DNA from: Hyphomicrobiales bacterium | GTDB taxonomy: Bacteria > Pseudomonadota > Alphaproteobacteria > Rhizobiales > Xanthobacteraceae | Assembly: GCA_003164375.1 (NCBI GenBank) | Contig: PLTE01000382.1 | Location: 2,333 to 35,264, forward strand | DNA: 32,932 nucleotides | Direction: 5' to 3' | Shown: piece after piece, positions 10,072 to 15,539 of the stretch | How the letters are laid out: the number at the start of each line of letters is the position of its first letter | Position numbering within the stretch: the first letter of the stretch is position 1 | Notes under the pieces: generated by a model | The model's input: only the letters and a program-made list of their open reading frames with translations | Database searches by the model: none | What the model was told of the DNA's origin: nothing | Translations under genes and position numbers: made by a program

Positions 10072-11706
10072 TTAGACCCCCTCGGCCTGGCTCGCCGTCG
10101 CCGCGGGCGGCGCCGGCCATCGCTCGTGGGTGAGCGGCACCTGCATTTTAACGGTAAGCCCCTTGCGCGAAAAGGTACGCGTCACTTCTCCGTTGAGCTG
10201 GCGTTCGATGACGAGGTCGATCAGCCGTGAGCCGAAGCCGACACGCCGGGGCCGCCGTGCCGGCGGTCCGTTCTTCTCGACCCAATTGAACGTCATGGTC
10301 ATGCCGCGCTGACTGCGGTTTACTGACCAGCTTAGGTCGAGCTGGCCCTTGGGACGCGACAGGCTGCCGTGTTTGATCGCATTGGCCACGAGCTCATGCA
10401 GGGCCGCGTTCAAATTAAAAACCGGATCCGGCTCAAGATCGATATTCGGGCCTTCGAACGAGGCTCGGTCGATGTAAGGTCCAAGCACGACATAAAGCAG
10501 CTCCATAATCGGGATCGACTTCCAACCGCCTTCGGTGATCAGGCGGTGGGCATTGGCCATGGCAAGCACGCGCGCCTGGTACTTGCTGGTGAGGTCGGCG
10601 ATGCTTTTCGATGTTTTGGCCGTCTGCGAGAATAGCGCCAGTAATTGCGAAAATAGATTCCCGGAGCGGTGGCGCATGTCCCGGATCATCAATTCGTGGC
10701 GCTGCTCGAGCTGGCGGCGTTGAATGGCGCCGGCCAGGAGGTTGCCGACGGCAGCGAGGAACGAAATATCTTGCGCACTGAATTGGCGCTTTCTGGTGGT
10801 GCAGACACCGAGAATGCCATACGCGCGGCCGTCGCGACCGGCGATCGTCACGTTCACGCCGCTCATGCAACGGTGGTCGGTCAAGTAGGAGGCGACTTCG
10901 AACCTGTCTTCGCTGGCTAAATCGGCGATGACGACCGGAACGCTGGAATCGAGCGTGAAGCGGGCAAATGTATTGGGCGCCGTCGTCGTCAAAATCGTGC
11001 CGACGAGGTCCGTCTTCCAGCCGAAGCCGGCGCGCAACAAAAGTTCGCTGTCGCCGGGGAGGAGTTCTAGGATTTTGACGAAATCGACCACCAGCGTAAG
11101 GGCGACCGTGCTCACGGCATCATTGAGAAGCCGCTCAAGATCGGGTTCGGCGAGCGCGCGCTCGCCGAGCTGTGCCAATGCCTCGTGCTGCTTGGCGCGG
11201 CTGCGCAGCTCATTTTCAAGACGAACCCGTTCGGTCACGTCATAGCAAAGGCCGACCATGCCCATCGGTGCTCCGCTTTCGGCAAGGACCGTTCCGGTCG
11301 CTTCAAGCCAGCATTCGTCGCGACCGTCGCAGCACGGCGTCCGGTAGCGTGCACGGAACGTTGATCGGGTGCGCAGCGCCTGTTGCAGCGCCATTTCCAC
11401 ATCGGCCCGATCATCGCGATCGATGGCGGCGATGAAGCCTGCATAGCTGCCGTCGAAGCTGCCGGACGACATGCCGTACAGCGCCTCAAGATTGCTCGAC
11501 CACGTCACAGTGCTAGCGGCGCTGTCCCAGAACCAGACACCGATCGGCGCGGATTCCAACGCGGCGCGAACCGTCGCAAAATTCGGAAAGAATTCCTTTG
11601 CAAACTCATTGGCGGCGCTTACTGCGATCTTGTCCACCGACCGATCGTTTGGCGCAATCAATTCCAACTTGCTCGTATCAGGCATGTGTTTCTCGGACAT
11701 GGTCAT
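10072..11706 (-). CDS. PAS-GAF sensor histidine kinase, HWE/HisKA_2-type
   Basis: PAS (GVWFWDSAASTVTWSSNLEALYGMS), GAF (LGERALAEPDLERLLNDAV...), phosphoacceptor RDMRHRSGNLFSQLLALF, LHELVANAIKHGSLS, FNWVEKNGPP (W-x-E), GFGSRLIDLVIERQLNG. Start MTMSEKHM at 11706 favoured. Confidence 0.88.
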   Translation of the reverse strand: MTMSEKHMPDTSKLELIAPNDRSVDKIAVSAANEFAKEFFPNFATVRAALESAPIGVWFWDSAASTVTWSSNLEALYGMSSGSFDGSYAGFIAAIDRDDRADVEMALQQALRTRSTFRARYRTPCCDGRDECWLEATGTVLAESGAPMGMVGLCYDVTERVRLENELRSRAKQHEALAQLGERALAEPDLERLLNDAVSTVALTLVVDFVKILELLPGDSELLLRAGFGWKTDLVGTILTTTAPNTFARFTLDSSVPVVIADLASEDRFEVASYLTDHRCMSGVNVTIAGRDGRAYGILGVCTTRKRQFSAQDISFLAAVGNLLAGAIQRRQLEQRHELMIRDMRHRSGNLFSQLLALFSQTAKTSKSIADLTSKYQARVLAMANAHRLITEGGWKSIPIMELLYVVLGPYIDRASFEGPNIDLEPDPVFNLNAALHELVANAIKHGSLSRPKGQLDLSWSVNRSQRGMTMTFNWVEKNGPPARRPRRVGFGSRLIDLVIERQLNGEVTRTFSRKGLTVKMQVPLTHERWPAPPAATASQAEGV

Positions 11707-11844
11707 GCCTTCATTGTCACGGATTTTACAAATCCGCCTTGGGCGCCTCAGGTAAAGATTGTGGTTGGTGATGACAATGGAAAGAGGCCGAAGCACGTTT
11801 CATGCGCTTCGGCCGCGGCAATGCACAGCGACAAAACTGTTCCA

Positions 11845-12904: not shown

Positions 12905-13231
12905 TTATGTCGTACAACGGCCGTAGACATGGGCCAATCGCGGCGACGCAATCGGCGAGAAGGCGGCGTCGCAGCCATCGGGAATTTCTTCGGGCGCCTG
13001 CCGAGTCAGTTGCAAGACCGACCCGCGGCGCACCGCCGAGTTGATTTGCGCAGAGAGCGGCAATCGATTGCCCTTGAATGCGCGGTTTACAGAGACCGCG
13101 GGGGTCCCAACGGTAAGACCCGCGCCCGCAGTCGGATCGGCGCTTAAGAATGGGAGGAGGCCGACGAAGAGCAAAGCAACCGCAGTCATGCCCAGCGCGC
13201 CGGCGATGCGAACAAACAACAGCTTGGCCAT
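12905..13231 (-). CDS. Small secreted/periplasmic hypothetical protein
   Basis: MAKLLFVRIAGALGMTAVALLFVGLLPFLSA hydrophobic N-terminus; C-terminus EEIPDGCDAAFSPIASPRLAHVYGRCTT with two Cys; perfect EcfG-type promoter upstream. Confidence 0.7.
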   Translation of the reverse strand: MAKLLFVRIAGALGMTAVALLFVGLLPFLSADPTAGAGLTVGTPAVSVNRAFKGNRLPLSAQINSAVRRGSVLQLTRQAPEEIPDGCDAAFSPIASPRLAHVYGRCTT

Positions 13232-13321
13232 CGGACTTCTCCGCCGCGCCGAACCGATCGTGGTCACGATCGTTCGGGATGCACGAAAAGCCCCTCAAGC
13301 TGACCACCACACCGACGACTC

Positions 13322-13346: not shown

Positions 13347-13449
13347 GGCAACACGGCGAGTCACCGACTCGTGATGGCGCCTGGCCGTCATAGCGCGACC
13401 GGCGACGCTCGGTCCGGATCGATAAGGAACAAAGAACAGAGTCAGGGCT

Positions 13450-13546
13450 TGTTATGCCGGACGGCCATTCTTCCCCCCTCCCCCCGTGCTTGGCCGGCCA
13501 TGTTGGGCGCAACCGATATGCCGATCGGTTGCGCCTTAATTTTTTG
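13450..13546 (+). ncRNA. Candidate small RNA, GsrN-like architecture (C-rich loop hairpin plus intrinsic terminator)
   Basis: Hairpin CGGCCA(13462-13467)/TGGCCG(13491-13496) with 23-nt loop containing CCCCCCTCCCCCC (13473-13485); then 12-bp perfect terminator stem and T-run; no + strand CDS upstream; GGAAC at 13426-13430. Confidence 0.55.
13506..13546 (+). terminator. Intrinsic (Rho-independent) terminator on + strand
   Basis: GGCGCAACCGAT-ATGCCG-ATCGGTTGCGCC followed by TTAATTTTTT. Confidence 0.85.
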
Positions 13547-13650
13547 GCTTCTTCTTTCCAGGGCGCCGCAATCCGTCTTCGCTCGCCGGACGCGTTTCGA
13601 CGGGTATCAGTCCACCAAAGTGAGAAGCGCGCGGCGGATAGCCACAAGCC

Positions 13651-13738: not shown

Positions 13739-14557
13739 TTACAACGTCGCTTGGCGCTCGGTCGGCTTGCGCTCGCGTTGCCGCGCCTTGCGACCGAAGA
13801 ACAGAGCCTGGCTCACTACGGCGGACACTACCGCGACCTGGAACGGTTTTGCGATCAGGAAGGCCGGCTCAGGCCGTTGGCCGGTCAGGAACCGCTCCGG
13901 GTAAGCGGTGATGAAGATCACCGGCACTTCGAACGAGCCGAGCAGTTCGTTGACGGCATCGAGGCCGGAACTGCCGTCGGCGAGCTGAATGTCGGCGAGA
14001 ATCAGCCCCGGCCGCTGGTGTTTGGCCAGCGCCAGTGCCTCGCTGTGGGTACGCGCAATGCCGATAACGTTATGACCGAGACTTTCGACCAGCGCCTCGA
14101 TATCCATGGCGATGAAGGTCTCGTCCTCGATGATGAGGACATCGGTCGCGATTTCCGCCGCAAGCTCGCGGCCGGATTCCTCGACCAGACCGCGCAGCGT
14201 CTGCAGATCACAGTCGAGCACTTCGGCAGCGTCCTCCTCGGAGAAGCCTTCGAGCGCGACCAGCAGAAAAGCCTGGCGGGGCCGCGGCGTGATCTGAGTC
14301 AGGTGCTGCTCCGGCGGCAGGATGATCTCGCTCGCTTCGGGCGTGCCATTTACCGCCACGGAATTCCAGATTTTGGTGAATAGGCGATAGAGGGCAATCC
14401 GTGAGTTCGAGCCCGATTGCAGGATTTTGGGGCTAGCGATCAGCGATTCGACAGTGGCGACGACGTAGGCGTCCCCGGAGACCTGACTGCCGGTCAAGGC
14501 CCGAGCGTAGCGGCGCAGTGACGGCAAGTGCTGCAGTACGGCTTGTGAGGTAGACAC
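13739..14557 (-). CDS. phyR: General stress response anti-anti-sigma response regulator PhyR
   Basis: N-terminal ECF sigma-like domain (LPSLRRYARALTGSQVSGDAYVVATVESL..., AFLLVALEGFSEEDAAEVL) fused to receiver (VLIIEDETFIAMDIEALVESLGHNVIGIART...LILADIQLADGSSGLDAV...VIFITAYPE). GTG start at 14557 with SD GGGGAGGG. Confidence 0.96.
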   Translation of the reverse strand: MSTSQAVLQHLPSLRRYARALTGSQVSGDAYVVATVESLIASPKILQSGSNSRIALYRLFTKIWNSVAVNGTPEASEIILPPEQHLTQITPRPRQAFLLVALEGFSEEDAAEVLDCDLQTLRGLVEESGRELAAEIATDVLIIEDETFIAMDIEALVESLGHNVIGIARTHSEALALAKHQRPGLILADIQLADGSSGLDAVNELLGSFEVPVIFITAYPERFLTGQRPEPAFLIAKPFQVAVVSAVVSQALFFGRKARQRERKPTERQATL

Positions 14558-14596
14558 GGCACCCTCCCCTTCCACGATGCTGAGGTTACTGGCAAA

Positions 14597-14621
14597 AACG
14601 CCGCAGCGCAAAAAAAGTTCC
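14597..14621 (-). promoter_or_regulatory. EcfG-type promoter of phyR
   Basis: Minus strand GGAAC (14621-14617) - N16 - CGTT (14600-14597). Confidence 0.85.
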
Positions 14622-14638: not shown

Positions 14639-14664
14639 GGAACCATGGGGGCTGTCAGTGCGTT
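14639..14664 (+). promoter_or_regulatory. EcfG-type promoter of nepR-ecfG
   Basis: GGAAC (14639-14643) - N17 - CGTT (14661-14664). Confidence 0.85.
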
Positions 14665-14704: not shown

Positions 14705-14968
14705 ATGGGTGATCGGGGGAAAGACGACGATATGAAGCACCGCAAGACCAACCTAGAGCCATTAGAGCCGGTCGCGGAGAAGCCGGAAAGCCATAACCCC
14801 ATGGGCAGATCAGTCACTTCCCAAAAGCCCGAAGCCCGCCTGGGCCGCGAGGTTCAGGCTCGGATCGGCCAGCAATTGCGCGCCATGTACAACGACGTGG
14901 TTAGTCAGGGCGTGCCGCAGCATCTTACTGATCTGGTCCGGCGGTTGGGCGACCAAGAAGCCGAGTAA
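14705..14968 (+). CDS. nepR: NepR family anti-sigma factor
   Basis: LGREVQARIGQQLRAMYNDVVSQGVPQHLTDLVRRLGDQE is the NepR core; between phyR and ecfG. ATG at 14705 (or 14732) preferred because the ORF-track start at 14627 lies upstream of the promoter. Confidence 0.93.
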   Translation: MGDRGKDDDMKHRKTNLEPLEPVAEKPESHNPMGRSVTSQKPEARLGREVQARIGQQLRAMYNDVVSQGVPQHLTDLVRRLGDQEAE

Positions 14969-14987: not shown

Positions 14988-15539
14988 ATGAAGCTCGATC
15001 CTGCGATACGCGACCAAGTTCTGGCTACCGTGCCGAGCCTGCGCGCATTCGCGATATCGCTGTGCGGCAATATCGACCGTGCCGACGACCTGGTGCAGGA
15101 GACGCTGCTACGGGCGCTCGCCCATATCGACAGTTTCGAGCCTGGCACCAACATGCCGGCTTGGCTGTTCACGATCCTGCGCAACTTGTTCCGCTCCGAG
15201 TATCGCAAGCGGCGCCGCGAAGTGGAAGACGCCGACGGCCGTTACGCCGAAACGCTGAAATCGCACCCCGAGCAGACCGGCCGGGTCGAATTCGAGGAAT
15301 TCCGCGCCGCGCTGGCGAAGCTGCCGTCGGACCAGCGCGAGGCGCTGATCCTCGTTGGCGCGTCGGGCTTCTCCTATGACGATGCCGCAGCGATCTGCGG
15401 CTGCGCGGTCGGCACCATCAAGAGCCGTGTCAACCGCGCCCGCACTCGGCTGGCCGATCTGCTCGCCATCGACAGCGTCGACGACTTCGGGCCCGATCGG
15501 GCAACCCGCGCGGTGCTTGCGGGCGGCGGTCGGAATTAA
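14988..15539 (+). CDS. ecfG: RNA polymerase sigma factor EcfG (general stress, ECF15)
   Basis: LRAFAISLCGNIDRADDLVQETLLRALAHIDSFEPGTNMPAWLFTILRNLFRSEYRKRRRE; sigma-4 ALILVGASGFSYDDAAAICGCAVGTIKSRVNRAR. Confidence 0.95.
   Translation: MKLDPAIRDQVLATVPSLRAFAISLCGNIDRADDLVQETLLRALAHIDSFEPGTNMPAWLFTILRNLFRSEYRKRRREVEDADGRYAETLKSHPEQTGRVEFEEFRAALAKLPSDQREALILVGASGFSYDDAAAICGCAVGTIKSRVNRARTRLADLLAIDSVDDFGPDRATRAVLAGGGRN

Follow-up and report, generated by a model that had tools for sequence, protein, structure and literature searches.

A covarying small RNA beside the phyR-nepR-ecfG general stress locus of Xanthobacteraceae, very probably a GsrN-like regulator

A contig of a Hyphomicrobiales bacterium of the Xanthobacteraceae (PLTE01000382.1) carries the general stress response (GSR) genes phyR, nepR, and ecfG, and the DNA next to phyR raises the question of whether a separate small RNA is encoded there, and, if so, which sigma factor transcribes it and which mRNAs it might bind. 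The window analyzed here is the whole stretch of 32,932 nucleotides. An initial annotation had proposed a two-module RNA, a C-loop hairpin plus a terminator, at 13426-13546, and each of these features does lie where it had been placed. The RNA itself is a plus-strand, two-hairpin element in which the C-loop hairpin comes first and the intrinsic terminator second. Its parts are as follows.

13457 to 13546, plus strand: small RNA, a predicted transcript of ~90 nt whose start is deduced from the promoter
13459 to 13499, plus strand: hairpin 1, stem GG-A-CGGCCA / TGGCCG-G-CC
13468 to 13490, plus strand: exposed C-rich loop, a putative seed for pairing with G-rich mRNA
13505 to 13545, plus strand: intrinsic terminator with a 13-bp stem, a 6-nt loop, and a U-run

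In hairpin 1, the loop TTCTTCCCCCCTCCCCCCGTGCT lies unpaired between the left arm GG-A-CGGCCA and the right arm TGGCCG-G-CC. The terminator at the 3' end of the RNA reads GGGCGCAACCGAT-ATGCCG-ATCGGTTGCGCCT at 13505-13536, then TAATTTTTT, and was also picked up independently by a terminator scan. The plus-strand RNA folds at -37.1 kcal/mol, compared with a shuffle mean of -26.7 (z -3.4); none of 200 shuffles equaled it. The fold of the minus strand is weaker (z -1.8). In addition, there is no plausible protein gene on the plus strand for more than 1 kb upstream, in agreement with the earlier reading of that region. An ATG does open an 87-aa plus-strand frame at 13454, which might be taken to code for a small protein; however, this frame crosses the terminator, and a conserved reading frame is excluded because the length of the loop varies by 1-6 bases among close homologues. 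It is barely conceivable that this frame accounts for the element.

How widely is the element kept? The initial annotation had staked the small RNA on close relatives keeping the C-rich loop and the stems. A blastn search with 161 bases found the element in 17 of the 19 other genomes of the same genus, and weakly in two further genera; the loop bases CCCCCGTGC are near-invariant within the genus, while other genera show CCCCTCGTGC or CCCCCTGCCCC. Most of the named records that bear the motif are metagenome-assembled genomes assigned to Xanthobacteraceae or Hyphomicrobiales. A first covariance model, built from 22 sequences, has matches in 87 of 300 family genomes (25 of 47 genera), and a broader model, built from 94 sequences, in 168 of 300 (32 of 47 genera); the E-values of these models are rough, given short calibrations. 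The window's own small RNA is matched at 13454-13548 with 97.9 bits. About 44% of the sampled family genomes have no model match under strict filters, and because the large searches used such filters, an absent match is not proof of absence. Among the genera with matches are g48 (genomes of ~5.5-8.8 Mb) and g52 (~4-6 Mb), which are probably Bradyrhizobium and Rhodopseudomonas, respectively. The RNA family spans many genera of the Xanthobacteraceae as GTDB defines that family.

Beyond the family, one genome from another family of the same order has the RNA, with GGAAC-N16-CGTT. A class-wide model search, in which first-look filters limit sensitivity, gave no convincing relative outside the order; the matches found there lack GGAAC and look like chance. 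A class-wide pattern combining promoter, C-tract, and U-run gave 1 match among 395 genomes, a result that says little because the degenerate promoter in the window itself escapes this pattern.

The structure is well supported by covariation, which the initial annotation had named as a check across relatives and which is strong in two alignments, one of them free of structure. In the model-fitted alignment, which holds 94 sequences, standard pairs fill 97.4% of the base-pair cells, compared with 25-45% in slid controls; there are 276 cells with two-sided changes, and 20 of 21 pairs change on both sides. These include 7 of the 8 pairs of hairpin 1 (93 distinct sequences) and all 13 pairs of the terminator. 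When the window's own structure was scored on a second alignment (MAFFT, 56 sequences), which was made without structure, 93.2% of cells were paired, with 169 two-sided cells, versus 21-47% paired in slid controls. Furthermore, the pyrimidine tract of the loop is at least 70% unpaired in the predicted folds of 95 of 96 homologues.

The terminator loop is conserved as well (GTGGTGATGCC) in genera with large genomes (L138, L141, L147, L150, L158, and similar loci). This is unusual for a plain terminator, and a second pairing site is possible.

The neighboring GSR genes had been named in the initial annotation, and Pfam confirms all three. The features around the small RNA are the following.

12905 to 13267, minus strand: 120-aa open reading frame (ORF), divergent from the small RNA, conserved in the genus
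13346 to 13322, minus strand: EcfG box of the 120-aa ORF, a perfect GGAAC-N16-CGTT, conserved at 17 of 18 loci of the genus
13426 to 13450, plus strand: EcfG-type promoter of the small RNA, GGAAC at 13426-13430, N16, GCTT at 13447-13450, the -10 being degenerate
13739 to 14611, minus strand: phyR (PhyR_sigma2, PhyR_sigma-like, Response_reg), convergent with the small RNA
14597 to 14621, minus strand: EcfG box of phyR, GGAAC-N16-CGTT, from a pattern scan
14639 to 14664, plus strand: EcfG box of nepR-ecfG, GGAAC-N17-CGTT, from a pattern scan
14715 to 14721, plus strand: GGGGGAA tract in the nepR leader, a candidate target 17-11 nt before the start codon
14732 to 14968, plus strand: nepR (PF18557 NepR), start picked by comparison with relatives
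14988 to 15539, plus strand: ecfG, general stress sigma factor (Sigma70_r2, Sigma70_r4_2), 95-99% identical in the genus

The 120-aa ORF has no Pfam match and a signal-peptide-like start, and is probably an uncharacterized general-stress protein. On the far side of the small RNA, Pfam identifies an L,D-transpeptidase and an HWE-type histidine kinase. Within the reach of the contigs, the gene order in the genus is kinase(-), L,D-transpeptidase(-), 120-aa ORF(-), RNA(+), phyR(-), nepR-ecfG(+). A PAS-GAF-HWE histidine kinase at 10072-11796 (minus strand), near the GSR locus and kept in the genus, is a candidate kinase for PhyR.

Nearly all model matches are convergent with phyR, and at loci with enough flank, the RNA is also on the same strand as ecfG. 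Since the terminator stem is a near-perfect palindrome ~200 nt past the phyR stop, the element might instead terminate transcription in both directions or be merely a 3' element of phyR, with no separate RNA; weak reverse-strand model matches, which cover the terminator hairpin only, point the same way. However, the U-run is found on the plus strand only, leaving the minus-strand hairpin without one, and hairpin 1, its loop, and the GGAAC box are all conserved on the plus strand. Furthermore, the distance from the RNA to the end of phyR ranges from 27 to ~1500 bp, and is once 2.3 kb, and there are extra copies of the RNA (six in G022, three in G184, and two in G063), several of which show no phyR within the flank examined. 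Both of these readings are highly improbable. The six copies in G022 (L060, L038, L042, L126, L132, L139), five of which have GGAAC upstream, may be sibling small RNAs.

If the element is a stand-alone RNA, which sigma factor transcribes it? Since the covariance models hold no promoter sequence, the region upstream provides an independent test. In 95 of 96 matches, a GGAAC precedes the start of the model by ~28 nt, versus a chance expectation of ~2.5% per sequence; the homologues behind this count are not independent, yet the bases flanking the box have drifted apart from genus to genus. With GGAAC as the anchor of the alignment, 82-89% of the matches retain a TT at offset 18-19, corresponding to the TT of the EcfG -10 cGTT with a spacing of N16. 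The initial annotation had correctly recognized GGAAC at 13426-13430, but its -10, read as N17-CTTGTT, is better replaced by N16-GCTT, which contains the conserved TT. Its +1 near 13457 fits this register, which puts the start at ~13456-13459.

Within the 33-kb window there are three perfect GGAAC-N16/17-CGTT sites (0.5 expected), all at the GSR locus, where they serve phyR, nepR, and the 120-aa ORF; the box of the small RNA is the deviant one. Because these three genes have canonical boxes, the small RNA sits in a compact EcfG-controlled cluster. The degenerate pattern GGAAC-N16/17-NNTT is found 7 times in the window versus 5.2 expected; since this pattern by itself is not significant in the window, the case for the promoter of the small RNA rests on its conservation.

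The deviant -10 bears on whether the RNA, though real, is driven in the genus by another sigma factor, housekeeping or other ECF, and so falls outside the EcfG regulon. In every genus member the -10 is GCTT, CTTT, or similar, without the CG of CGTT, as such a reading would predict. Against it, all genus members keep GGAAC, and many other genera have cGTT or cATT at equal spacing; in addition, the region around the small RNA yielded no sigma-70 promoter, and the neighboring genes bear EcfG boxes. Control by a different sigma factor is thus unlikely, and the promoter sequence suggests that the RNA would be under EcfG control.

The next question is whether the RNA belongs with GsrN of Caulobacter crescentus (Tien et al. 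2018, PMC5869019). Like GsrN, it has an EcfG/SigT-type promoter (with a degenerate -10 in the genus), a predicted length of ~100 nt, an exposed C-rich loop in its 5' half, and an intrinsic terminator. It lies close to phyR-nepR-ecfG. In most Caulobacteraceae, gsrN is also near GSR genes, whereas in C. crescentus it is away from the GSR locus (PMC5869019). GsrN, moreover, is processed into a 5' isoform and is Hfq-dependent, and its six-cytosine loop pairs with G-rich mRNA, the Caulobacter target being katG (PMC5869019). Pairing with katG, which is a Caulobacter feature and not required of GsrN-like RNAs elsewhere, is unsupported in the genus, where 11 katG leaders have no shared G-tract that matches the loop; katG was consequently set aside as a target. 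The term "GsrN-like" thus holds for the way of working suggested by promoter, loop, terminator, and locus, but not for katG pairing, and the RNA may be placed beside GsrN by function.

For B. diazoefficiens and R. palustris, Tien et al. had proposed GsrN-like RNAs solely on the grounds of position and a promoter site (PMC5869019). These predictions have the same place at the GSR locus and an upstream EcfG site, and probably belong to the same family as the g48 and g52 matches; the present work adds structure, covariation, and conservation of the loop. The covarying structure is consistent with that prediction and with a family of the GsrN-like kind by function (PMC5869019). The Rhizobiaceae GsrN-like RNAs (R. 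etli, S. meliloti, B. abortus) are likewise GSR-dependent; they lie near the GSR locus and expose a C-rich loop (PMC5869019). In an order-level sample, the models matched none of these Rhizobiaceae RNAs, the one match being the genome of another family mentioned above.

Other known RNAs fit less well. Neither the window nor any of ten homologous loci reaches the gathering score of an Rfam release 15 family. For the BjsR RNAs of B. japonicum, the promoters given are of the RpoD/RpoN type, or none is given, and no description places these RNAs at phyR. The CcsR/cuckoo RNAs of Rhodobacter are RpoH-dependent and have CCUCCUCCC loops; an RNA of that type would also present a C-rich, anti-Shine-Dalgarno-like loop together with a terminator. 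Here, however, the loop carries another motif (CCCCCCUCCCCCC), an EcfG-type box lies upstream, the gene is found at phyR-ecfG, and Rfam gives no match, making membership in the CcsR group hardly credible.

By analogy with GsrN, the C-rich loop is the likely seed. In the window, the GGGGGAA of the nepR leader forms 7 perfect pairs with loop bases, and similar G-tracts occur in the nepR leaders of most genus members. In 68 nepR leaders, the longest stretch perfectly complementary to the cognate loop averages 6.2 nt, compared with 5.4 nt for the background (320 leaders) and 5.3 nt for ecfG, with rank-test p-values of 1.8e-7 (versus background) and 2.8e-5 (versus ecfG); the leaders share ancestry, and a single background value (36) reflects either the RNA itself or an overlap artefact. 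The enrichment is a lead rather than proof because of this kinship, the artefact value, and the fact that the G-tracts double as Shine-Dalgarno sequences. Among the mRNAs examined, the nepR-ecfG leader is nevertheless the best candidate target, and pairing there would form a feedback loop. A fuller version, in which the loop binds the G-tract covering the nepR ribosome-binding site, changes the balance of NepR to EcfG, and does so in much of the family, is possible though rather doubtful. In Caulobacter, nepR-sigT mRNA is reported to have co-eluted with GsrN, and no feedback on SigT was observed (Tien et al., PMC5869019).

Genome-wide exact complements of the loop were also considered as targets and rejected, lying mostly in REP-like repeats and not in gene leaders. 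In the genome G000 (loci L175, L177, L179, L180, L181, L183, L184, L191), REP-like palindromic repeats carry GGGGGAGGGGG, or a sequence one base off, which complements the loop of the RNA. This may be a coincidence of two GC-rich elements, or possibly a sponge.

Taken together, homologues, synteny, covariation, and the GGAAC box bear out the proposal of a conserved, unannotated small RNA beside phyR-nepR-ecfG; it is real and very probably a stress-induced regulator like GsrN. The best explanation, to which we assign a probability of roughly 0.8, is that the RNA has a gene of its own within the EcfG general stress regulon and works as follows. Under stress, PhyR would sequester NepR, freeing EcfG, which would then transcribe the RNA from the conserved GGAAC-N16-nnTT promoter. 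The predicted transcript of ~90 nt would stop at the intrinsic terminator, seen both as sequence and as covarying structure, and hairpin 1, whose pairs covary, would keep the C-rich loop single-stranded. As in GsrN, the loop may then pair with G-rich stretches near ribosome-binding sites, altering the translation or stability of the mRNA; if the nepR-ecfG leader is among them, the RNA would feed back on its own regulon.

With these results, what had been predicted solely from position and promoter becomes a defined, covarying RNA family with a covariance model. It is a testable regulator, with a defined putative seed and a candidate target in the nepR-ecfG leader, and the small divergent 120-aa gene appears, from its promoter, to be part of this EcfG-controlled cluster. 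The general stress response matters to soil survival and symbiosis in Bradyrhizobium and Rhodopseudomonas, the genera to which this family probably extends.
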